A stretch of DNA of 34,472 bases from Candidatus Gastranaerophilales bacterium (GCA_944323635.1 CALUTH010000002.1:1-34472); one strand, 5' to 3'. Positions 3,533 through 24,177 are shown, numbered from the stretch's first letter. Translations and numbers: made by a program. Notes: generated from the sequence alone by a model not told the origin.

Positions 3533-4714
3533 ATGAAGAAACTTTTATTAACCGGTTTATTATGTGTATTTTTGGAAGCAGGTGTAATTGCTTCGCCTTA
3601 TGATACTATTTACATTAATCCTTATAATCTTAATGAAACGGTTGCAAATTCTTATATAAGAGGTGTTATTGCGCAGGGTGATGTTACAAGATGGAATACA
3701 ACAACATTTCCGCTCAAGGTTTATATTCAGCAAAACAGCGGCGTACCGGCGTATTATGTAAATGAAATTAAAAAAGCGTATAATAAATGGCAGAATGTTA
3801 CGGGGGGTACAATTTCGTTTAAATTAGTTTCGTCTCCGGAAAATGCGGATATGAAATGTTATTTTGAGCAGGACTTGTCAAACCTGTCTGATGATACTGC
3901 AGGTTATCACCAGTTTAAATATTACGGAGATACTATTGCCGATTCAGTGATAAGGTTTCGTTATACTGATAAAAACGGGCGTGCGTATCCTGCCGATATG
4001 ATTTATAATGTTGCCCTTCATGAGATTGGGCATTCTCTTGGACTTGCAGGACATAGTTCAAAGTCTTCGGATCTTATGTATCCGATTTCTTTAAATAGAA
4101 AATATGATATTTCAAAGCGGGATTTGACTACTTTAAAACTGTTGTACTCAATGGTGCCGGATTTGACTAACAAGCCCTTTACGAGCAGTGATAAGTCAAA
4201 TTTGCTTACCAAAGAGCAGGTCGTCGGCGGAGCAGAACAATTACGTAAAGATGCAGAGACCGCCGCAAAAATAAATACAAAAATTACGCCGGATGACCCA
4301 AGTTCAAAGCTACGGCTTGCAATGGCTTATCAGAAAAATAAAAATTATACTGCAGCAATAAAAGAGTATAAAAGTATTATTCCGCTTATAGATTCGTCAG
4401 AGCTGAAGGTTGAAATATATTCTGAAATTACAAATTGTTATATAAAACTAAAAAATTATACTGCAGCACAGAATTGTGCTAATTATACTTATAAAAAATA
4501 TCCGACGCAGCGTACAGCAGTACTTTTGCCCAGAGTTTTGTATGAAAAGGGAGCTAAAACAGACGCCGTGATAAAACTTTTAAGAATACTGAAAAATGAT
4601 TCGGATAATGAGTATGCTGTTGTTTTATTAAAACAAATTTATAATAAAGAGAAAAACAATTATAAATTACGAAAAGAAATATTTATGACATTAAAAAAAG
4701 AGGGTAAACTATAG
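3533..4714 (+). CDS. Secreted matrixin-like zinc metalloprotease with C-terminal TPRs
   Basis: This 393-residue protein is likely an extracytoplasmic zinc endopeptidase of the metzincin (M10/matrixin-like) class. A Sec signal peptide covers residues 1-21 (KK, hydrophobic core, A-S-P). The metzincin zinc site is complete at residues 163-174, HEIGHSLGLAGH, with three His ligands and the catalytic Glu164. A Met-turn follows (SDLMYP). Residues ~245-390 are helical repeats with TPR character (KLRLAMAYQKNKNYTAAIKEYKS and similar), probably a partner-binding module. There is no cysteine-switch propeptide. The start has no obvious ribosome binding site. A paralogue with the same layout is at 9478-10947. 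The substrate is unknown. Confidence 0.85.
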   Translation: MKKLLLTGLLCVFLEAGVIASPYDTIYINPYNLNETVANSYIRGVIAQGDVTRWNTTTFPLKVYIQQNSGVPAYYVNEIKKAYNKWQNVTGGTISFKLVSSPENADMKCYFEQDLSNLSDDTAGYHQFKYYGDTIADSVIRFRYTDKNGRAYPADMIYNVALHEIGHSLGLAGHSSKSSDLMYPISLNRKYDISKRDLTTLKLLYSMVPDLTNKPFTSSDKSNLLTKEQVVGGAEQLRKDAETAAKINTKITPDDPSSKLRLAMAYQKNKNYTAAIKEYKSIIPLIDSSELKVEIYSEITNCYIKLKNYTAAQNCANYTYKKYPTQRTAVLLPRVLYEKGAKTDAVIKLLRILKNDSDNEYAVVLLKQIYNKEKNNYKLRKEIFMTLKKEGKL

Positions 4715-6735: not shown

Positions 6736-7788
6736 ATTATTATCAAGTTATCGCAGGCTCATATAATCGGTGCAATTATTTCTTATATTTTAGGTGTATT
6801 AATACTTCCGTTTGTAATAGATTTTTCTAAAAAAGAGGGACTTGTAGATGAACCTAATGAAAGAAAAATTCATAAAATTCCAATATCACGGCTTGGCGGG
6901 ATTGCTATATGGCTGAGTACGATGGCGACATTTTTATTTCTTGTAATTTTAAGTTATTATCCATACGGCAGCCTGCTTTCGGGTATTCTTCTCGGCGGTT
7001 CTCTGATGTTTCTGCTCGGGCTTGTTGATGATATTTACAACCTGCCCGCAAAATTCAAACTTGTTATTCAAATCCTTATTGCAACACTGGTCTACCTTCT
7101 CGGGGTAAAGATTGATGTTGTTTTTAATATGACCGATAACCCGATTTTTTTGGGGTATCTTTCTTATCCGATTACTGTTTTGTGGATAGTCGGTATAAGT
7201 AATGCTATAAACTTTATAGACGGTGTAGACGGGCTTGCGGGGTCTGTTATAACGGTTAATTCAATAACACTTGCGCTTATTGCGCTTGCCGTAACCCCGG
7301 GGTATCCGATAAGTGCGCTTATTGCGTTTATCCTTGCAGGTTCTATGCTTGCCTTTTTGACTTACAATTTTAATCCGGCGCGTATTTTTATGGGAGATTC
7401 GGGTTCGTTATTTTCCGGATTTCTTCTTGCGGCACTCTCGATTACAGGTGTTATGAAAGGTGCCGCACTTGCAATTCTTCTTCCGTTTATTGTACTTGCG
7501 GTTCCGATTATTGATATTACTTTTGCATCCTTGAGACGTATTTTGAAGGGTAAATCTCCGTTTGTAGCGGATGCGGAACATATCCACCACAAACTTTTAA
7601 AAGCCGGATTTTCGCAGAAGAAAACAACTGCAATAATGACTTCTGTTGCAATTGCGGGCGGTGCGGTTGCGACATACTTTGCAGGTTCAATAAAGCACTA
7701 TATCAGTTATATAGTTGCACTGGTAATTATTATGTTTTGCCTCAGTCTTATAAATGTTTACAGAACAAGGAAAACAAATAATAATTAA
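6736..7788 (+). CDS. WecA/TagO-type undecaprenyl-phosphate sugar-1-phosphate transferase
   Basis: An inner-membrane enzyme of the MraY/WecA superfamily that moves a sugar-1-phosphate (usually GlcNAc-1-P) from UDP-sugar to undecaprenyl phosphate, starting surface glycan synthesis. Family motifs appear in order: VDEPNERKIHKIPISRLGG, GLVDDIYNL, NFIDGVDGLAG, FNPARIFMGDSGSLFSG and the HIHH motif (EHIHHKLL), with about ten transmembrane helices. HIHH points to the WecA/TagO branch, not MraY. The conserved N-terminus lies upstream of the first ATG (6922). Between the glyA stop and this region there is no ATG, GTG or TTG in frame. With AGAGGA 7 nt upstream, ATT at 6736 is the best start and gives a normal 350 residues. 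The 3' end overlaps the convergent repressor gene by 4 nt. Confidence 0.88.
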   Translation: MIIKLSQAHIIGAIISYILGVLILPFVIDFSKKEGLVDEPNERKIHKIPISRLGGIAIWLSTMATFLFLVILSYYPYGSLLSGILLGGSLMFLLGLVDDIYNLPAKFKLVIQILIATLVYLLGVKIDVVFNMTDNPIFLGYLSYPITVLWIVGISNAINFIDGVDGLAGSVITVNSITLALIALAVTPGYPISALIAFILAGSMLAFLTYNFNPARIFMGDSGSLFSGFLLAALSITGVMKGAALAILLPFIVLAVPIIDITFASLRRILKGKSPFVADAEHIHHKLLKAGFSQKKTTAIMTSVAIAGGAVATYFAGSIKHYISYIVALVIIMFCLSLINVYRTRKTNNN

Positions 7789-8396
7789 ACCGTTCTTATT
7801 ATGCCTACAACTTCACCTATTATGTTAACAGAGTTCAAATCCTCGTCTTTTATAACGCGGGGTCTGTAATCTTCGTTATCAGATTTGACAATAAGTTCAT
7901 CAATGTTTTTGGATAAACGTTTTACAAAGAATTCGTTTTTGTAGCAAAATACGTATATTTTATCATCCGTAACCTGTTCATTGCCGGCTTTATGCTCTAT
8001 CAGTAATTTGTCGCCGCTGTTAATAAAAGGTGACATGCTGTTGCCGGAGGCGTTAATCAGTGAATATTTCTTTTTGGATGAATAATTATTGATAAATAGT
8101 TTTGATACGCTTACCTGTGTTTTATCATCCGAGAAAACTATATTTCCGTCTCCGCAGCTTGCAAACACATCCTGATAATAGTCAATCAAAACTGAATTAT
8201 TATCAGACGTTCCTATTAGATTTATATGAAAGCGTTCTTCAATTTTCATTAATTCAGACACGGTGAGTTCACTGTCTGTCTTAATGCGGTTGCTTATGGT
8301 TTGTCTGGTAACGCCCAGAATTTCTGCAATCATTGATTGGTTGACTGCCATCCCTGCTTTTTGGGTGACTAGTGATGTTAATTCTTTAATTTTCAT
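7785..8396 (-). CDS. LexA/CI-type S24 autoprotease repressor
   Basis: This 203-residue protein has an N-terminal helix-turn-helix of the phage-repressor (XRE-like) kind at about 18-50 (SMIAEILGVTRQTISNRI) and a C-terminal S24 peptidase domain. The catalytic Ser is residue 120 (SGNSMSPFINSGD) and the catalytic Lys is residue 159 (FFVKRLS). A Cys-Gly pair at 81-82 (FASCGDG) is the likely self-cleavage site, the dipeptide cut in UmuD; most LexA and CI proteins use Ala-Gly. The spacing of cleavage site, Ser and Lys is close to LexA's, but the DNA-binding domain is not LexA's winged helix. It should repress the divergent small genes and be removed by RecA-stimulated cleavage. A GAGGGG site precedes the ATG. 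Confidence 0.88.
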   Translation of the reverse strand: MKIKELTSLVTQKAGMAVNQSMIAEILGVTRQTISNRIKTDSELTVSELMKIEERFHINLIGTSDNNSVLIDYYQDVFASCGDGNIVFSDDKTQVSVSKLFINNYSSKKKYSLINASGNSMSPFINSGDKLLIEHKAGNEQVTDDKIYVFCYKNEFFVKRLSKNIDELIVKSDNEDYRPRVIKDEDLNSVNIIGEVVGIIRTV

Positions 8397-8556
8397 GGCC
8401 CCTCACGACAAGTACTTGACAATCGTCAAATATTGTTTTACAATATGTATAAAGATGTATACCTTTTCTTAACCCATTATGACACATATTTGTCAAAAGG
8501 TCAATACATTTTTATATAATTGTCAAATAATATTTAAAGGAGGAGATTTGCCGTTT
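8397..8556. promoter_or_regulatory. Divergent control region with several inverted repeats
   Basis: Between the repressor and the small genes lie TTGAC-N4-GTCAA (8416-8429), ATATTGT-N3-ACAATAT (8430-8446) and TGACA-N6-TGTCA (8480-8495), plus single TTGTCAA copies at 8490-8496 and 8520-8526. On the plus strand TTGTCA (8490-8495) and a perfect TATAAT (8515-8520) form a promoter with a long 19-bp spacer. The TTGTCAA copies overlap both boxes, as expected for repressor operators. The shared half-site TTGTCAA/TTGACAA is the best guess for the repressor's recognition sequence. Confidence 0.6.
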
Positions 8557-8829
8557 ATGCTAAACGCTTTGTACAAACCATTTTTCAACTGTGTATCGTT
8601 TTGTAAATATTTTTTTGTAAATAAAAAATATTCTTCAAAACAAAAACTGATAAGGAAGCTCAAAAAAATGTTTCTTATGCACTACATTACTGAATGTGTA
8701 CTGCTTTCGGATAATTATCTTATAACAGCACATCAAGCGCGTGTTATGGCTCAAAAATATTTTCATACCCCGGCAGGAAGAATTCTGCTTCGCAACGCTG
8801 CTGCAGTTCTGAAAGAGTGTTTAAGATGA
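8557..8829 (+). CDS. Small basic protein, first gene of the repressor-controlled set
   Basis: This 90-residue basic protein is not recognised. It is Lys-, Phe- and Tyr-rich in the first half (residues 1-45) and helical with alanines in the second (HQARVMAQKYFHTPAGRILLRNAAAVLKE). An AAAGGAGG site is at 8536-8543. The in-frame TTG at 8548 is 4 nt away and the ATG at 8557 is 13 nt away, so the start is ambiguous. The stop overlaps the next ATG in an ATGA arrangement, indicating translational coupling. By position it is an early gene under the S24 repressor. Confidence 0.65.
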   Translation: MLNALYKPFFNCVSFCKYFFVNKKYSSKQKLIRKLKKMFLMHYITECVLLSDNYLITAHQARVMAQKYFHTPAGRILLRNAAAVLKECLR

Positions 8830-9113
8830 TAAAAAAGAGTATTGTATCAAACAGTGATTGTATTGAAGAAGAATGGACGCCTTCGGCAATCGACTGTTTT
8901 GAAATTAAATGCAATTGCAAAAGATGTTTTTTGTATCACGTTTATTTCAAATATTCGCCCGATAAGTGCAAAATGTATCAGGCGGTAAAAAGGTTAATCA
9001 GAAAGGTTGGTATTCCAGTTAAATATGAGAAAGAAGCATATTCGGAAACAAAAAATAAAGCCGCAGGACATAAAAAACTACGGTCTGGTTCTGTTGACGC
9101 AGGAGCAGTTTGA
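8826..9113 (+). CDS. Small Cys-containing protein, second gene of the set
   Basis: This 95-residue protein begins at the ATG of an ATGA overlap with the upstream stop (8826-8829). That start is preferred to an in-frame GTG at 8817. The central part (about residues 20-45) carries a C-x-C-x2-C cluster followed by FLYHVYFKYSP and another Cys, compatible with a small zinc- or metal-binding fold. The C-terminus is basic. It overlaps the next gene by about 90 nt in another frame. I do not recognise the family. Dense overlap of tiny genes is typical of phage or plasmid early operons. Confidence 0.6.
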   Translation: MIKKSIVSNSDCIEEEWTPSAIDCFEIKCNCKRCFLYHVYFKYSPDKCKMYQAVKRLIRKVGIPVKYEKEAYSETKNKAAGHKKLRSGSVDAGAV

Positions 9114-9318
9114 CAGGCTGATTGAGAATTTTGGAGAGGATTTAACGATGTTTGCAGTAAAATTGCTAAACGATAAGATAAAAGTTGACAGGTCTGACGG
9201 AAAGCTCCGTAAGGCAAAAAATCATTATCAATATTTTAGGAGTGATAGCAAAATTATACTTTTTGCACTTGAAGTAATGAATTCGTCACAAAAATATGGT
9301 CATATCTATTTCTGTTAG
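9025..9318 (+). CDS. Small protein resembling a phage replication-protein tail domain
   Basis: The gene encodes 97 residues from ATG 9025; a TTG at 9007 is also possible. After a very basic start (RKKHIRKQKIK) comes YGLVLLTQEQFDRLIENFGED and, about 35 residues later, GKLRKAKNHYQYFRSD. The spacing recalls the short C-terminal module of phage DnaD/helix-turn-helix replication proteins (LT-x-EQ-x2-LV-x2-FGE ... K-x-Y-x-SHY-x-TI-x-W), here detached from any N-terminal domain. This resemblance is from memory and approximate. The large overlap with the preceding gene and the weak ribosome binding site imply coupled translation. It ends before the terminator at 9373. Confidence 0.55.
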   Translation: MRKKHIRKQKIKPQDIKNYGLVLLTQEQFDRLIENFGEDLTMFAVKLLNDKIKVDRSDGKLRKAKNHYQYFRSDSKIILFALEVMNSSQKYGHIYFC

Positions 9319-9372
9319 TCTAATAAGCTTAATCTTTCACCCCCTAATGTATGTTTATACATTTACCACCTG

Positions 9373-9396
9373 CCGGTTTTATTGAACCGGTTTTTT
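9373..9396 (+). terminator. Intrinsic terminator of the small-gene set
   Basis: The stem CCGGTT / AACCGG (9373-9378, 9385-9390) has a 6-nt loop and is followed at once by six T. Confidence 0.85.
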
Positions 9397-9413
9397 CTTT
9401 TGTAATAATCCGC

Positions 9414-9477: not shown

Positions 9478-10947
9478 GTGATTAAGCGTATAGGTATTAT
9501 CGTCGGTGTACTTATCTTATTGTGGAGCGGGTATTTTTATCTGGAGCACCGTGCGGAATTTGATTACAGACAGGCGCAGTCGGCTTTTGGCTCCGGCGGG
9601 GATGAAAAAGCGTTTAAACTTGCACGCAGTGCATACCTTAGCGATATTACAAATAACAATTACAGAAAACTCTTTCTTGATACAATAATCAGGTTGGATG
9701 GAACGTACGAGGCGCAGGAGGCGCTGCTTGCGTTTATTGATGACGGAATTTATGATATTTATCAGACAAAAGCAATTGAATATTTACACACGCTTGAAAG
9801 GCGTTTTGCGGACAAGTATCAGCCTAACTATATAGAGCTTATCCCTTATAATGATAAAATTATCCGCTGGGGGAAAAGTCCGATAAAAGTCGGGATTAAA
9901 AAACGGGATGATCTTGATGTGTATTTTATAAACGAGGTTGAAAGCGCACTTATGGAATGGCAGCGTGCAACTGATAATAAACTTGTGTTTGTATTTGATG
10001 ATTGTAAAAATCCTGATATAACAATTGAATTTGAAGAATTAAATGTTGATAAAGAAAACAAAAATAATCTGTATATTGTTGCAAATACGGAGCCTGTATT
10101 TGACGGGAATATTTTGCAGAATATGAAGATTACCATGTACACTAAAAACAATCAGGGCAAGTATTTTACTAAAGAAGAAGTATATAACACAGCCCTGCAC
10201 GAAGCCGCACATGCGCTCGGAATTTTCGGGCACAGCAGACATCCTGAGGATGTTTTATACCTCTCCTCTCCCAGTATCGCTGGCAAAAAAGAATACAAAA
10301 AACTCTCCGGGAGTGATATTAATACGATGAAACTTTTGTACGAAATTAAGCCGGACATAACCTCGGGCAAGCCGGAGTACAGTATTCATCCGAAAATCAT
10401 TTTCGGTGAGCCGGAAGAAATTAACAAAACAAAGATTTCCGAAGCTGAAAACTATATCAAACAGGCGCCTGCATTGCCTAACGGGTATATTGATTTAGCG
10501 CAGACGGCTATTTTTGCAAAGGATTATGACAAAGCACGCGAGTGTTTGAAACGCGCAATAAAATATGCAAACGATAACAATACAAAGTTTATTATTTATT
10601 ATGACTTTGCGGTTATTTGCTACGAGACGGGCGATATGAATAAATCGCTCTATTATACTCAAAAAGCGCAGGAATTCAGGAGCAAAAACAGTGTGACTGC
10701 GCTGCTTGCAAATATTTACTACAAGAAACGCGAATACAAAAAAGCGATTGAACAGTATGAAATTCTTGTAAGCGAGTATCCGCAAAGTATAATGTACGGT
10801 GTAAATCTTACAAAACTCTATATTAATCAGCGCCGGTTTATAAGAGCGGCAAAAACGCTCAAGCACCTAATTGCAACCAACCCCGAGTCGGCTGATGATA
10901 AACGTGTTAAGGGGCTTAAGTGGGTTCTCCTGTTTGCGGGGAAATAA
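9478..10947 (+). CDS. Membrane-anchored matrixin-like metalloprotease paralogue with TPRs
   Basis: This 489-residue paralogue of the protein at 3533-4714 starts at GTG with an AAGGAG site. An N-terminal hydrophobic helix (residues 4-22, with basic residues before it) is a signal anchor. Residues 25-110 form an extra helical region absent from the paralogue. The zinc site HEAAHALGIFGH is at 241-252 with Glu242 intact. The Met-turn methionine is replaced: the paralogue's SDLMYP aligns with EDVLYL. C-terminal TPR-like repeats span about 330-480 (YIDLAQTAIFAKDYDKAREC, YYKKREYKKAIEQYE). A changed Met-turn can still fold, so activity is uncertain. It is a single-gene unit between its own promoter and a strong terminator. 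Confidence 0.83.
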   Translation: MIKRIGIIVGVLILLWSGYFYLEHRAEFDYRQAQSAFGSGGDEKAFKLARSAYLSDITNNNYRKLFLDTIIRLDGTYEAQEALLAFIDDGIYDIYQTKAIEYLHTLERRFADKYQPNYIELIPYNDKIIRWGKSPIKVGIKKRDDLDVYFINEVESALMEWQRATDNKLVFVFDDCKNPDITIEFEELNVDKENKNNLYIVANTEPVFDGNILQNMKITMYTKNNQGKYFTKEEVYNTALHEAAHALGIFGHSRHPEDVLYLSSPSIAGKKEYKKLSGSDINTMKLLYEIKPDITSGKPEYSIHPKIIFGEPEEINKTKISEAENYIKQAPALPNGYIDLAQTAIFAKDYDKARECLKRAIKYANDNNTKFIIYYDFAVICYETGDMNKSLYYTQKAQEFRSKNSVTALLANIYYKKREYKKAIEQYEILVSEYPQSIMYGVNLTKLYINQRRFIRAAKTLKHLIATNPESADDKRVKGLKWVLLFAGK

Positions 10948-18885: not shown

Positions 18886-20091
18886 ATGCCAAAAAACTTG
18901 AGAGATTACGTCAATGACGTAATGAATGACAACAGAATATTCAGCTATGAAGATGTACTTGCGATGGATAATGAAGAGGGCAAATATTATCAGAAGGCGC
19001 TGGATTATCAATATGGGAAAATCGGGTTTCCAAGCAATGCGGAACTAGCAAACTCGAGTGACGTCGTCTTTGTTAACGAATATACAAGACAGGACGGAAC
19101 TTTAGTAAGAGCACATTACCGTTCAAAAGCGGGACACGGGAACCCGAATAAACCTGTAATGCAGTCACCCAAAGAATACAAGTCAACACTGGAAAAAGAA
19201 ATAAACGACTACATGGACAGAGATGTACAGAAACGTTACGGTAAACCGACAGGGTTTGCTGTACCTGTATCCCATAATTATGAAGTGGCTAATAAGATTA
19301 TGCAAACAAAAGAATATAAGGAATTTGAAGCTGTTCTGAATCAATTATTACAAGGTTCTGACCAGAAGCAATCAGATATGTATTTAGAAATGGTTGAAAA
19401 GGCTCAAAAGCTGCAAAAACTACCTGAATTTGGTAAATTAGAAAAAGGGTTGGGCTTATCGTATTCTCTTGCAACTTCAAGACCAGTATACAATGCTCAA
19501 GTAAAAGCAATAAAGAATCCTAATTCTATATCATCAAAGATTGCTGAAGGGTTATTCCCAAATGCTACAAAATATTATAGGATTGCGGCAACAAATGGTC
19601 AATCTGTTCTTCGCGGTATAGATGATGATAATATACTGTATACTGTAAAGCAAATAGAAGATAGAAAATTAAAGGAGCATATATTGATGTCTATGCGAGG
19701 AAATAATGTTAATATACATACATTGGTTGTTCAACCAAAACTTAATGCTGAGTTAACACGTGTTGTAAAAAACACATCAACAGTAAAAAATGCTTTAAAA
19801 AATTATTCTGGCAAATTAATTTTTCCAATTGATTTTCAAAATGAAAATAATGATTTATATAAAACTATTGGACATGCACATTTATTTAATCCGCATAGGA
19901 ATAGTGATGGTAATATAATTGTTACATTGGTAGATTACTATGACTTTGATGAAAGTTTTACTGGTGGTTTCGCTGGTGCATTGGTTGATAATGCTTATGT
20001 TCAACAAGAAAGAGGTGATTTAACTAATTATGTTTTATTGATAGACCTTAAATATACTCCAGAAGAATGGCAAAAAATAATAAATAATTAG
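18886..20091 (+). CDS. Putative toxin/effector, cassette 1 (shared C-terminal domain)
   Basis: This 401-residue soluble protein has no signal peptide. The N-terminal half (1-225) includes RQDGTLVRAHYRSKAGHGNP at about 64-85, a motif style common near phage-derived or polyvalent proteins, and Lys/Gln-rich helices. Residues 226-401 match the C-terminus of the protein at 21132-22157: NAT-x-YYRIAATNG, DDDN, VVQPK, DLY-x-T-x-GH-x-H (His330, His332), DGNI and VDYYDF (350-354), then NAY-x-QQE-x-G-x-LTNYVLL. The invariant His, Asp, Tyr and Lys suggest an enzyme. DNA becomes visibly AT-richer from mid-gene. A 64-nt spacer leads to a polytopic membrane protein, the probable immunity protein. Toxin function is inferred from architecture only. 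Confidence 0.7.
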   Translation: MPKNLRDYVNDVMNDNRIFSYEDVLAMDNEEGKYYQKALDYQYGKIGFPSNAELANSSDVVFVNEYTRQDGTLVRAHYRSKAGHGNPNKPVMQSPKEYKSTLEKEINDYMDRDVQKRYGKPTGFAVPVSHNYEVANKIMQTKEYKEFEAVLNQLLQGSDQKQSDMYLEMVEKAQKLQKLPEFGKLEKGLGLSYSLATSRPVYNAQVKAIKNPNSISSKIAEGLFPNATKYYRIAATNGQSVLRGIDDDNILYTVKQIEDRKLKEHILMSMRGNNVNIHTLVVQPKLNAELTRVVKNTSTVKNALKNYSGKLIFPIDFQNENNDLYKTIGHAHLFNPHRNSDGNIIVTLVDYYDFDESFTGGFAGALVDNAYVQQERGDLTNYVLLIDLKYTPEEWQKIINN

Positions 20092-20107
20092 AAAATATAT
20101 TAAACAG

Positions 20108-20150
20108 TTGCAAATGTTGATAGTATATGTTAATATACTATCAACAGGAG
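20108..20150 (+). promoter_or_regulatory. Internal promoter overlapped by a 13-bp inverted repeat, cassette 1
   Basis: TTGCAA (20108-20113) and TAATAT (20131-20136) are 17 bp apart. A perfect inverted repeat, GTTGATAGTATAT (20116-20128) and ATATACTATCAAC (20133-20145) around GTTA, spans the promoter and ends against the AGGAG site (20146-20150). It could bind a repressor as DNA, or form an RNA hairpin in readthrough transcripts from the toxin-like gene. Confidence 0.65.
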
Positions 20151-20155
20151 CAATA

Positions 20156-21082
20156 ATGACACATAAGCGGACATGCATGTTTTGGGGCTGGGAAAATATA
20201 ATTATTCTGTGTTTAAACTTGTTTAATTGTTTTACGGGATTTGTACTGATATTTTCTTTGTATTTTTGGGAAAGTTTAGCAGAAACTGTATTAGATATAA
20301 AGCTATTACCGGTCTATATTTTTACTGCTGCATTGAACTTTTCTATCATACTTGCGTTGGTGTATTTTAGTATATTTAGTATTACCCAAAGAACCGGAAT
20401 GCTGCGGTATATTTATGATTTAAGATGTAATAGTGCTAAAAGACGGAAATTATATGCTTTGGCGTTATTCTTATCCCCCTGCTTTCTTTTTAATATACTG
20501 GTAATTCTTAGCGGAACTTTTAAAACTCCAATGGATAACTTAATAACACTTCTAAACGGGGCTTATTTTTCAATGGCGTTTCCTTTAATTTTGGTATTTG
20601 CGGTGTGGAAGTTTATGGCGTATCTTTCAGAGCGCTGTGAAAAAATATTAAAAGGTATTTTTAAATTAACTGTATTTGTTTTACTGCCGTTGTATTCGTG
20701 TTTAGTTCATTATTTTGTACTTGAGTTAATAAAAGACTTATATTACTACTCTATAATATTTGAAGTTCTTATTTGTCTTGTGGTCATGTTGTCCGGTATA
20801 CCACTACTGATTGATGAAAAAACTTCGAAATTAATAGATTGTATCATGTCAAAAATATTGTGGATAATACCTGCGTGGTTTTTGGGGGTATACTGGGTAT
20901 GCTTTAATGTGCAGGAAGATTGGATTGTGTTTATTACGTTGTACTTATCGGTAATGCTCGGGTTGATTTTTCTGCTTTCATCCCCGATTATGAAACTCAA
21001 GGCAAAGAATATAGAACTGCGCAGAGAAGTTGAAGAAATGTGTATCAACCAAAATAATGGTGTTTGTATAAATAACAAATAA
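20156..21082 (+). CDS. Polytopic membrane protein, putative immunity protein 1
   Basis: This is a 308-residue membrane protein with about eight predicted helices and no known motif. It belongs to a local family with the proteins at 22222 and, more distantly, 23194. Shared traits are a mid-protein L-S-P-x-F ... FPLI-x-VF stretch and a C-terminal signature, SSPIMKLKAKNIELRRE, which places a basic tail just after the last helix. I start it at ATG 20156 with AGGAG 5 nt upstream. An earlier TTG at 20108 would fall inside the -35 box of its own promoter. It follows the putative toxin by 64 nt. Immunity is inferred from pairing, duplication and membrane topology; a transporter or sensor is not excluded. 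Confidence 0.72.
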   Translation: MTHKRTCMFWGWENIIILCLNLFNCFTGFVLIFSLYFWESLAETVLDIKLLPVYIFTAALNFSIILALVYFSIFSITQRTGMLRYIYDLRCNSAKRRKLYALALFLSPCFLFNILVILSGTFKTPMDNLITLLNGAYFSMAFPLILVFAVWKFMAYLSERCEKILKGIFKLTVFVLLPLYSCLVHYFVLELIKDLYYYSIIFEVLICLVVMLSGIPLLIDEKTSKLIDCIMSKILWIIPAWFLGVYWVCFNVQEDWIVFITLYLSVMLGLIFLLSSPIMKLKAKNIELRREVEEMCINQNNGVCINNK

Positions 21083-21090
21083 TCCTATAT

Positions 21091-21131
21091 AAAGAAATGT
21101 CCAGAAACGTTACGGGACAGGGGTAAATAAA
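21091..21131 (+). repeat. Scrap of cassette-1 coding sequence before cassette 2
   Basis: The 14-mer CAGAAACGTTACGG at 21102-21115 is identical to 19228-19241 inside the first toxin-like gene. ATGT precedes and GACAGGG follows in both, with a 6-nt gap in this copy. It looks like a leftover N-terminal coding fragment at a recombination junction. The AGGGG that serves as the ribosome binding site for the next gene lies within it. Confidence 0.6.
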
Positions 21132-22157
21132 ATGGATAATAATACGGACTACCTGCAGGAGCTTATAGACATACTTCCTGAAACAGAATATACACCGTTA
21201 TACCCGTCAAACGGAACATTAACGGGTCAGATAGAAATGTCAAACAATATAAGTAATGAAATACCTGCAGTGAATGTACAACCAAACATAAAACCATCAA
21301 CCCAACCAAAACCGCTTGCAAAACCCTATACCGGCAGGGAGATGAATATAAGTAATATTGAACTGCCTGAAAAGGAAAGATTAGGACAATGGGATAGAAT
21401 GCAAAAACAGATTGAAAAACCAGTTTGGTATCCTTCAAAACTAACACCAGTAGACAAAATGGAACGTGTGGTAAGAAAAACCCCAGATAATATATTAAAA
21501 GCATTTAAGTATGTAATTAATAAGGTGGGCTATCCTCTGCTGTCTACTGATAAAGGATATAAATTGCAGGAATTTGCAAGTAAAAACAAAGTAGTTTCAG
21601 AAGCCGTTGAAAAAATTTATTCTCCAAATGCAACGGAATATTATCGGATAGCAGCTACAAATGGTAGGTCTGTACTTGAAGGAACGGATGATGATAATTT
21701 GATATTTACTGTTGATAAAGTTCAAGACACTGACTTGAAAAATCATATATTAGAGATAATGCACGAACATGGTGTAAATCGTAAAACTATGGTAGTCCAA
21801 CCCAAGGAGGGCTCACGTTTGATGAACGATGTTAAGTATTCCCCAACAGTAATAAATGCATTAAAAAATAATCTGAATAAGAAAATAATAGATCTTGATT
21901 TTACCGGAGAAGGTGATTTATATAGAACATTAGGGCATACCCATATCTATAGACCATATAAAGATAGAGATGGAAATATAGTTGTAAATATCGTAGATTA
22001 TTATGATTTTAGTGATTCTGATGCTCATACAGTAGACGGAGCTGTAATCAGAAATGCATATAAACAGCAGGAAAAAGGAGAGTTAACTAATTATGTATTG
22101 TTACTTGAATTGAAATATGAGCCGTGGAAATGGATAATGTTAAACTATGATTGGTAA
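21132..22157 (+). CDS. Putative toxin/effector, cassette 2 (same C-terminal domain)
   Basis: This 341-residue soluble protein has residues 166-341 homologous over their full length to residues 226-401 of cassette 1, with His269 and His271 (GHTH), DYYDF at 289-293, and the same YYRIAATNG, VVQPK and LTNYVLL blocks. Residues 1-165 are unrelated to the other protein: an acidic start, a Pro/Asn-rich linker (about 40-75), then a basic helical region. A constant C-terminus on exchangeable N-termini is what cassette shuffling produces. There is no signal peptide. It is followed by a 64-nt spacer and the second membrane protein. The catalytic activity is unknown; a D-x-Y-D motif as in colicin M-type enzymes is present but the His-Arg pair is not. 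Confidence 0.7.
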   Translation: MDNNTDYLQELIDILPETEYTPLYPSNGTLTGQIEMSNNISNEIPAVNVQPNIKPSTQPKPLAKPYTGREMNISNIELPEKERLGQWDRMQKQIEKPVWYPSKLTPVDKMERVVRKTPDNILKAFKYVINKVGYPLLSTDKGYKLQEFASKNKVVSEAVEKIYSPNATEYYRIAATNGRSVLEGTDDDNLIFTVDKVQDTDLKNHILEIMHEHGVNRKTMVVQPKEGSRLMNDVKYSPTVINALKNNLNKKIIDLDFTGEGDLYRTLGHTHIYRPYKDRDGNIVVNIVDYYDFSDSDAHTVDGAVIRNAYKQQEKGELTNYVLLLELKYEPWKWIMLNYDW

Positions 22158-22171
22158 ATATATTAAAACGA

Positions 22172-22214
22172 TTGCAAATGTAGATAGTATATGTTAATAT
22201 ACTGTCTACAGGAG
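22172..22214 (+). promoter_or_regulatory. Internal promoter overlapped by inverted repeat, cassette 2
   Basis: TTGCAA (22172-22177), 17 bp, TAATAT (22195-22200). The inverted repeat TGTAGATAGTATAT / ATATACTGTCTACA (22179-22192, 22197-22210) encloses the same GTTA centre and abuts GGAG. Against cassette 1, a T to A change in the left arm is matched by A to T in the right, and one further change leaves a G-U pair. Confidence 0.65.
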
Positions 22215-22221
22215 CAATTAT

Positions 22222-23082
22222 ATGTTTAACAGGATAAATAGAGTACCAATAGTAGAAATCGTTACAATATTACTGTTAAATATTATAATATTTATTATTG
22301 GTACATTTCAATTATTCCTTCTCTTTCTTGAATTTGACGGGTATGTTTCTCAGGAGAGGTATAATGAGTTAGTTTTCTTATTAAGATGTAACATTTTTGT
22401 GATTAGCTGCTATGTTTGTGTATATTTAAATCTGTTTCATCTATCAGTAAATCGTTTTTTTATAAATTTGATTTATTATTTTATGCATCGTCGAATAATC
22501 TTAAAAGTTGTATGTGCAGCATTGCTTGTTTTGTCGCCGGCATTTTGGCTTGGCTTTGGTACTGGGGATTATCTGGGGATTATAAGTGGGATAGTTTTGA
22601 CTTTCGGGTTTCCGCTAATTGTACTTTTTATGAACAAGGCTTTTTTAGATTGGGTGAGGAAATACAGTGTAATCATTTCCGACTGGTTATATTTTATAAT
22701 GATAACCCTTTTATTACTGCTGCTCTTGATTTATCCTGGTATCTTATACTATTACTTGCTTTATTTTGACCAAACTAAATTTTCGACTGTTGAAATAGTA
22801 ATATTGGCTTTTGTGTTGTTGATAACAGTTCCTCTTTTAGTTACTTCCTTTACGCGGGCAATAATAGAAAAGGTAAAGAAATATGTTTTGTATTTATTGC
22901 CATTTTGGGGTATCTTTTTGTATTTTGTAATACATGTACAAAATAATTACCTGATAAAACTTTATTCTGTTTATATTTCTGTTCTATTACTGTTTGTCCT
23001 GCTATTCTCAACTCCAATATTAAAACTAAAAGCAAAGAATTTGGAATTACGCAGAGTGATAGAAAAGAGTTTGAAAATGTAA
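22222..23082 (+). CDS. Polytopic membrane protein, putative immunity protein 2
   Basis: This 286-residue homologue of the protein at 20156-21082 has about eight helices. Collinear landmarks are VLSPAFWLGF, GFPLIVLF, LLPFWGIFLYF and the C-terminal LFSTPILKLKAKNLELRR. Overall sequence divergence from its sister is much greater than that of the two spacers preceding them, as expected if each copy is adapted to a different partner. The ATG has GGAG 7 nt upstream. No enzymatic residues stand out. The third family member follows after a short gap without an intervening toxin-like gene. Confidence 0.72.
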   Translation: MFNRINRVPIVEIVTILLLNIIIFIIGTFQLFLLFLEFDGYVSQERYNELVFLLRCNIFVISCYVCVYLNLFHLSVNRFFINLIYYFMHRRIILKVVCAALLVLSPAFWLGFGTGDYLGIISGIVLTFGFPLIVLFMNKAFLDWVRKYSVIISDWLYFIMITLLLLLLLIYPGILYYYLLYFDQTKFSTVEIVILAFVLLITVPLLVTSFTRAIIEKVKKYVLYLLPFWGIFLYFVIHVQNNYLIKLYSVYISVLLLFVLLFSTPILKLKAKNLELRRVIEKSLKM

Positions 23083-23157
23083 ACAATGATTAATTGATGC
23101 ACTGGTATAATAAGAACAAAGGATGTTGCCTATAAATAAGTAAATATATTAAATACG

Positions 23158-23186
23158 TTGATAAAAAGTAAGATGTGTACTATAAT
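23158..23186 (+). promoter_or_regulatory. Consensus promoter of the third membrane gene
   Basis: TTGATA (23158-23163) and a perfect TATAAT (23181-23186) are 17 bp apart, after an AAATATATTAAA block that also precedes the other two internal promoters. The palindrome seen in those two is absent. The predicted start of transcription coincides with the ATG at 23194. Confidence 0.7.
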
Positions 23187-23193
23187 ATGTCAT

Positions 23194-24177
23194 ATGTCTT
23201 GTTTTATTAATAATTTGAAAATAAATCATATAAAAACCTATCCGGTCGTAGAAGTAATATTAATGATTGTGTTAAGTATATCGAGCGCCTGCTTGATAAT
23301 CGCCTCATTAAGTATTTCATCACTATTTATAGACGAATGTATGGCACCTGTTAGTTTGGAAGCTGTTTTAGTGGGCGTGCAAATTTTGCTGCATCCGTTC
23401 TTTTTATTTATTTGTCCTATTTCACCCTTTAGTGTAGTTATTATTACAATTTTAATTAAAAATTTAACCGTTAATAAACTATTGGTAGAAATATTATCAA
23501 AAACCCCAAAAATGCAAAAACTGTTAAAAACGATGAGTTTATTATTATTGCTTTTAAATATAGCGGCTGTATCGGTGTTTTGCTTTCAGATATTTTCTTT
23601 TAACATAAAATTATTGACGTTAATTTTGTTATTTGCAGGATATGTTTTTTATTTTTCCTTCGTAATTACATTTTTACTTGATAAATTAATTTTAAATTTA
23701 AGAAATACTTGTTTGTTAAACAAATTAAGGAGGGTAATAAATCAGTATTTCAACAATTTATTTGCACAGCTGTTACCAGTTTTTGCACCTGTTTTGGGGT
23801 ATTGGTTATGTTATGTATATTTTGGTTTGAGTGAAGAAATAACATTCTATTGTATAACTCCCTTGTTGATATTTTTAATATTCTATATCTCACTTTCAAA
23901 CGCACAAAAGTTGAACGATTTGATTCGCTATTTATACCGCCATATAGTTTACGTTCTAATAGCCTTTGGCGCTGGACTTTATTATATTAATCATTCTTTT
24001 ATACTCTCAATCACCTCAACAAGCGATACTCCCGCCCCGATGACAAATGTTGTAAAATTTGCCATGATAATAATCGCGCCGGTAATGATTTTCCGTTTGC
24101 AGTTATACAAACTTCATCAGCGGAGCAAGCGGCTGTACAGCGAAGTAGAAGAAGAATATAGGCGGTGTAAACTTTAA
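23194..24177 (+). CDS. Polytopic membrane protein, orphan third family member
   Basis: This protein has 327 residues from ATG 23194 and eight or so helices. It is more divergent than the other two, but YPVVEVILMIVLSI near the N-terminus matches VPIVEIVTILLLNI of protein 2, and the C-terminus again ends with a basic stretch after the last helix (RLQLYKLHQRSKRLYSEVEEE). I prefer ATG 23194 to a TTG at 23158 because the latter lies in the -35 box. No ribosome binding site precedes 23194 and the message may be leaderless. It has no toxin-like gene of its own here, which fits an orphan immunity gene kept for protection against relatives. Confidence 0.65.
   Translation: MSCFINNLKINHIKTYPVVEVILMIVLSISSACLIIASLSISSLFIDECMAPVSLEAVLVGVQILLHPFFLFICPISPFSVVIITILIKNLTVNKLLVEILSKTPKMQKLLKTMSLLLLLLNIAAVSVFCFQIFSFNIKLLTLILLFAGYVFYFSFVITFLLDKLILNLRNTCLLNKLRRVINQYFNNLFAQLLPVFAPVLGYWLCYVYFGLSEEITFYCITPLLIFLIFYISLSNAQKLNDLIRYLYRHIVYVLIAFGAGLYYINHSFILSITSTSDTPAPMTNVVKFAMIIIAPVMIFRLQLYKLHQRSKRLYSEVEEEYRRCKL

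Follow-up and report, generated by a model that had tools for sequence, protein, structure and literature searches.

The closest precedent for the locus described here is FddR of Francisella, a chromosomal S24 repressor that is derived from a lambdoid phage, is located outside predicted prophages, and is present throughout the genus (PMC13148647, 2026). FddR regulates itself and a divergent gene, and the system is induced by ciprofloxacin. The repressor has an Ala-Gly cleavage site, and its GTG-N11-CAC operator was demonstrated by gel shift (PMC13148647). HdiR of Lactococcus and Streptococcus and the non-canonical LexA of Bacteroidetes are likewise phage-like S24 repressors in the place of LexA, and they control umuC/dinB or a full SOS regulon (PMC8565304).

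We have analyzed the first 34,472 nucleotides (the window) of contig C2 in a near-complete genome (G000, 1.95 Mb) from the Gastranaerophilales, a group related to Cyanobacteria for which a literature search found nothing on SOS regulation. A four-gene block in the window, with a repressor (REP) on the minus strand opposite three small genes (S1, S2 and S3) on the plus strand, shares several features with the FddR locus. The repressor is of the S24 type and phage-derived, it is found outside a prophage context and is conserved across its clade under purifying selection, it faces divergent gene(s), and its hosts have no working canonical LexA. On the other hand, the REP block belongs to another phylum, has a Cys-Gly cleavage bond, includes a phage replication-protein tail and a Cys-rich protein (S2), and is known here from sequence alone. 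In outline, the block probably works like FddR, with the phylum, the cleavage bond and the genes as the differences. In comparison with HdiR and the Bacteroidetes LexA, only a local operon is apparent for REP.

Organization of the locus

The coordinates of the features are listed in Table 1. The extents and reading frames of the four genes are as a prior sequence-only reading of the window had described them. S1 overlaps S2 by 4 nt, and S2 overlaps S3 by 89 nt. All three frames are open in six species with synonymous sites near saturation, and they are therefore not chance open reading frames. The set had also been said to end in a terminator; the 8-bp stem there is clear, although chance alone would be expected to supply one such site in the window.

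Table 1. Features of the REP block, in window coordinates
Feature	Position	Strand	Description
REP	7785..8396	-	203-aa CI-type repressor, HTH_3 and Peptidase_S24
Lys159 codon	7920..7922	-	Presumed general base; invariant
Ser120 codon	8037..8039	-	Presumed nucleophile; invariant
Cys81-Gly82 codons	8151..8156	-	Presumed self-cleavage site, motif DVFASCGxG
Rightward promoter	8416..8444	+	TTGACA-17-TACAAT; 11/12 consensus matches
Candidate operator O1	8416..8429		TTGACAATCGTCAA; covers right -35 box; TTGAC-N4-GT core
Leftward promoter (for REP)	8476..8504	-	TTGACC-17-CATAAT; 10/12 consensus matches; -35 region nearly invariant
Candidate operator O2	8480..8495		TGACACATATTTGTCA; within leftward-promoter spacer; some species of the genus only; weak
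S1	8557..8829	+	90 aa; GGAGG ribosome site upstream
S2	8826..9113	+	95 aa; invariant W17, C24, C31, C34, C48
S3	9025..9318	+	97 aa; C-terminal tail of Lin1244-type phage replication protein
Intrinsic-terminator-like hairpin and T run	9372..9401	+	3' of S3; 8-bp stem at 9372-9391

The block is adjoined by a glycosyltransferase-4 gene and a matrixin/TPR gene. No integrase or capsid reading frame was seen in the window, in agreement with the sequence-only reading that phage genes are absent nearby, and neither the window nor the surroundings of the relatives that were read showed phage structural, packaging or integration genes. The window also contains no tRNA and no Rfam match. Among the PADLOC defence models there was no whole-protein match, REP giving short HTH matches only and S1-S3 none.

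Two other features of the window lie outside the block. Two related matrixin-type metalloprotease/TPR genes are located at 3533-4714 and 9478-10947. An array at 18886-24177 encodes soluble proteins with a common C-terminal domain (YYRIAATNG...), followed by proteins with multiple membrane spans; it has no Pfam match, could represent paired effector/partner genes, and has a related set on another contig of the same genome (C13; L002, L140).

The repressor

REP contains a Peptidase_S24 domain (E 6.7e-17, residues 80-197) and an HTH_3 domain (E 3.8e-5). It matches the phage-type repressor family phrog_4 with an E value of 3e-31, and repressors similar to those of Fels-1 and P22 (C2) are among its tblastn matches. 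The 18 chromosomal sequences compared, and the phage contig L138 (see below), all have Cys81-Gly82, Ser120 and Lys159. The domains and invariant residues thus bear out the description of an S24 repressor with this bond and dyad opposite three overlapping genes. With HTH_3 and Peptidase_S24 domains, a Ser/Lys dyad and an (Ala/Cys)-Gly bond, REP is, as judged from its sequence, a CI-type phage repressor and not LexA.

The Cys-Gly bond had been regarded as unusual for a LexA-like protein. This is true, yet it is the form found in UmuD (PMC8565304) and is common to the group of phage repressors to which REP belongs. A search of PDB sequences with the REP profile gave nothing at E 0.001, and IMG/VR holds no close relative of REP.

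Distribution and composition of the block

The sample comprised 146 genomes of one Gastranaerophilales family, with a REP orthologue defined by at least 53% identity. Of the 20 genomes sampled from five related genera, 18 have an orthologue (g1, 5/6; g25, 5/5; g34, 4/4; g40, 3/4; g29, 1/1), which suggests that the bacteria now use the block themselves; none was found in the other genera of the sample. Conservation of the four-gene block across strains had been proposed as a check on the switch, and the block does recur with S1, S2 and S3 in five of the six other genomes of the window's genus, where REP is 77-83% identical. Another genome of this genus, G005 (99% complete), lacks the block but is uninformative as an empty site, because the adjoining glycosyltransferase gene is missing too.

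The 23 chromosomal REP loci of the five genera form one clade (support 100/100), which lies among repressors that are carried by phages or occur as orphans. The REP tree recovers each genus group, which fits mostly vertical descent.

The partners of REP vary among the genera. Those in g1 are S1, S2 and the S3 tail. In g25 they are S2 and the S3 tail, with S2 missing from one locus (L053, REP and S3 only). The g40 loci have an S1-like gene, S2 in one species, and a full-length S3 of about 200 aa. REP is accompanied by S2 only in g34, and by a full-length S3 in g29.

The control region

The rightward and leftward promoters are both among the top-scoring sites of the region. The rightward promoter is found at all 23 loci as TTGAC(A/T)-17-TAC(A/T)AT, with both boxes and the spacing kept. 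The two promoters are face to face, the leftward one pointing back across the rightward one, and they should therefore be mutually exclusive.

The divergent operon and its promoters are conserved at 23 of 23 loci; the operators between them are candidates only. The sequence-only reading had placed at least three inverted repeats here. These repeats by themselves are within chance, as 24 of 200 shuffles of this AT-rich stretch equalled the window, and more did so for the relatives; palindromes in a single sequence being not beyond chance, the operators remain candidates. What stands is TTGAC-N4-GT at the right -35 box, the sole operator-like element conserved at all 23 loci. It is the core of candidate operator O1, a near-palindrome that reads TTGACAATCGTCAA in the window and TTGACAAATGTCAA in two other loci (L012 and L013).

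The 5' leader of the S1 operon (8451-8510) has a long inverted repeat (ATGTA.ACCTTT / AAAGGTCAATACAT) that is kept in the window's genus and not in other genera. A leader hairpin at 8451-8560 was discarded, its folding being unexceptional (z -1.35). A second DNA match in the same genome (C13:4346-4394) is just a common sigma-70 promoter-like stretch before an unrelated gene.

The small genes

S1 has no protein-family match, and a possible homologue with the motif NY(L/I)IT..QA is present in a sister genus.

For S2, ten residues (W17, A21, C24, C31, C34, C48, M50, V54, G62 and P64, in window numbering) are invariant across the copies in the cassette, the host and phages. A profile of S2 finds at least one matching gene in each of the 146 family genomes, and by sequence S2 is paralogous to a chromosomal gene found throughout the family and to genes of phages. 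The host paralogue (WTPTAIECYKRGCNCEGCFY...QKCQMKASVLELVR) adjoins a putative ribosome hibernation factor gene, as identified by inspection. Examples of S2-family copies are L140:4598-4816 and L109:1477-1695, and the phage copies are near replication genes. Pfam and NCBIfam gave no convincing family match for S2, and there was no match in named phages. The predicted fold is all-helical (pLDDT 75.5), with no significant structure match in the PDB. With its phage copies and a host paralogue in every family genome searched, this small Cys protein deserves attention as a family without a Pfam or NCBIfam model.

S3 aligns with the C-terminal tail of its full-length relatives. The Lin1244_N domain is absent from S3 of the window, whereas three full-length relatives (L046, L048 and L062) show it at E values near 5e-4, which fall short of the curated cut-off but agree with one another. 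The C-terminal part of phrog_13246 (replisome organizer) is matched by both a g25 tail and a g40 full-length protein. The short S3 is thus a replication protein minus its N-terminal domain. S3 is homologous to the C-terminal tail of Lin1244/Lin1753-like replication proteins (PF14297, phrog_13246), and differs from them in having no N-terminal Lin1244 domain in the window's genus and in g25. These relatives, together with the phage protein described below, give good support to the earlier suggestion that the last gene keeps only a replication-protein tail. The predicted structure of S3 (pLDDT 80) has no significant match in the PDB; several chains of the lambda P-DnaB complex are among its weak structure matches (E about 2-7), which is not evidence.

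Probable origin from a temperate phage

The IMG/VR phage contig L138 encodes a repressor that is 43% identical to REP, with the cleavage site ASCGGG (DYYPDVLASCGGG). Its further genes include exonuclease-like and RecT-like genes, an S2 homologue, a Lin1244_N protein and a primase/helicase-like gene. The Lin1244_N protein (E 5e-10, above the curated cut-off) comes directly after the S2 homologue, and its tail aligns with S3; the primase/helicase-like gene follows. In another genome (G056), a prophage-like stretch (L227) likewise combines an S24 repressor with a replication protein whose tail is S3-like, and RecT-like and exonuclease-like genes lie alongside.

The CI/immunity regions of temperate phages (L138, and those of the P22 and Fels-1 type) have the same repressor architecture as the REP block, with a divergent early operon and the order of S2 and replication protein. 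In comparison, the block is without recombination, primase/helicase, integrase and structural genes, and its replication protein is truncated. From these gene relationships, the origin of the block is viral, and its source was probably the early/immunity control region of a temperate phage that infected Gastranaerophilales in the distant past. The gene order in L138 and L227 suggests that an immunity region was fused to the end of the early operon, and that the intervening part was removed. We consider it likely that the block is this control region, stripped to the switch and domesticated, with damage-released S1-S3 modulating replication.

Selection on the four genes

The dN/dS ratios were obtained for six species of the window's genus, from pairs with measurable dS only, with synonymous sites near saturation. 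They are about 0.03-0.08 for REP (strong purifying selection), 0.1-0.2 for S3, 0.2-0.55 for S2, and 0.15-0.85 for S1. On these ratios, REP and S3 are clearly maintained and S1 at best weakly, and S1 and S2 are evolving much faster than REP. The downstream output may not be the selected trait, because S1 and S2 are fast-evolving and the set of partners varies.

The constraint on REP (dN/dS about 0.05) is much stronger than that on the other genes, S1 and S2 drift, and partners can be lost. REP may thus be kept mainly for superinfection immunity against related phages, with the small genes as passengers. Phages with related repressors do occur in the same bacterial family. However, no phage repressor with more than 43% identity was found, S3 is clearly constrained as well (about 0.1-0.2 where measurable), and the rightward promoter is retained at 23 of 23 loci. 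We regard this explanation as unlikely.

Relationship to LexA and the SOS response

REP was considered as a LexA and rejected by three measures. Its score is 32.8 bits against an equivalog cut-off of 110.95 for TIGR00498, it is separate in the tree from the LexA-like proteins of its own family (support 99/99), and it has the invariant Cys81-Gly82 instead of Ala-Gly.

REP may instead have replaced LexA as the SOS regulator, with repair genes at other loci under its control. Most REP-bearing genomes have no S24 protein besides REP, and the second one of G045 and G111 belongs to the phage type. A LexA-type protein was found in none of the REP-bearing genomes, whereas a canonical LexA-like protein is present in other genera of the family. 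There are precedents for such a replacement by phage-type repressors, in Bacteroidetes (PMC8565304) and, in part, in Francisella (PMC13148647). However, a regulon search with TTKACANNTGTMAA in 12 genomes found 32 sites versus 29 for the reversed control, which is no enrichment; the pattern was built on O1 alone, and degenerate sites would escape it. None of the 18 matched loci that were read lies before a recognizable repair gene, and no gene recurs except the REP locus. Moreover, an S24 protein is absent altogether from 55 of the 146 family genomes, and therefore the absence of LexA alone says little. The replacement is thus quite improbable.

REP could act where LexA is missing, and from the sites found its regulation looks local. 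Of the SOS-type switch proposed earlier, only the mechanism is supported, by homology; the repressor is of the CI type rather than LexA, and a wider regulon was not found in the 12 genomes searched. By analogy with known S24 switches, the block probably works like an SOS switch, but is not LexA.

One genome of the family, G143, has seven S24 repressors. Three of these (L066, L069 and L070) are orphans outside obvious prophages, and some of the three are opposite small Cys-rich proteins and glycosyltransferase-like genes.

Genomic positions

At the 23 loci, REP is always in a compact arrangement amid housekeeping genes. The neighbours, identified by sequence inspection, include YchF GTPase-like and TrkA- or AroA-like genes in g25 and a PheS-like gene in g29. 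In g34 and g40, REP is followed on its own strand by a DUF167-like gene that abuts or overlaps it. The left neighbour differs in one species of g1 (L011) and the right neighbour in two (L012 and L013). A decayed longer prophage, the outcome in relatives that the sequence-only reading had set against its own proposal, was found at none of the 23 loci, no phage genes being seen around them.

The position of the block differs between genera, so that some relocation or horizontal transfer is possible, and the right-hand neighbours vary even between species inside g34 and g40. A minimal mobile or satellite element that moves by borrowed functions, the compact element of the earlier proposal, would show such variation. 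It is nevertheless very improbable. There is no recombinase or tRNA target, no flanking direct repeats of useful length were found, and the block is present in one copy per genome and is near-universal in its genera, with a repressor tree that follows them. The other half of that proposal, a domesticated remnant, is well supported by the non-prophage context, the clade-wide conservation, the purifying selection and the phage relatives. We give hardly any credence to a neutral, slowly decaying prophage scar without function. The loss of the N-terminal domain of S3 and the missing S1, S2 or S3 in some genera resemble erosion, but the frames are open, dN/dS is low at near-saturated synonymous sites (REP, about 0.05, contradicts it), and the promoters are kept across five genera.

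A model for the switch

The domesticated phage control region remains our preferred explanation, and by analogy it is probably a RecA-responsive local switch with a CI-type repressor. Its anatomy, conservation, selection and phage origin, and the loss of the N-terminal domain of S3, can be read at the level of sequence. We infer that REP binds its operators and that RecA triggers its cleavage, and likewise what the small genes do.

In the model, domestication probably preceded the divergence of the five related genera. REP would bind operators between the face-to-face promoters, keeping the rightward operon off and regulating its own gene. Upon DNA damage, RecA filaments would induce self-cleavage of REP at Cys81-Gly82 by way of Ser120 and Lys159, as is expected from homology with S24 repressors, and S1-S2-S3 would be released. 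The most likely output would be a short-lived modulation, probably an inhibition, of replication initiation or helicase loading, directed at the host or at incoming phages. Interference with replication is a guess from the nature of S3, a phage initiator tail without the N-terminal Lin1244 domain.

A bolder form of this model is unlikely. The cassette would be the entire damage response of these bacteria, which have no LexA. Upon DNA damage, the captured phage repressor would free a truncated replication initiator, and this would block helicase loading in a dominant manner. If true, this would be a one-operon replication checkpoint made from phage parts.

As a domesticated control region, the block is a clear addition to the phage immunity switches that have become fixed in bacteria, here among relatives of the Cyanobacteria. 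Because several stages of reduction exist (a complete replication protein, its tail alone, or just S2 or just S3), the locus could show the stepwise conversion of a phage circuit to a host circuit. It could also show whether the tail of a replication initiator has become a regulator.
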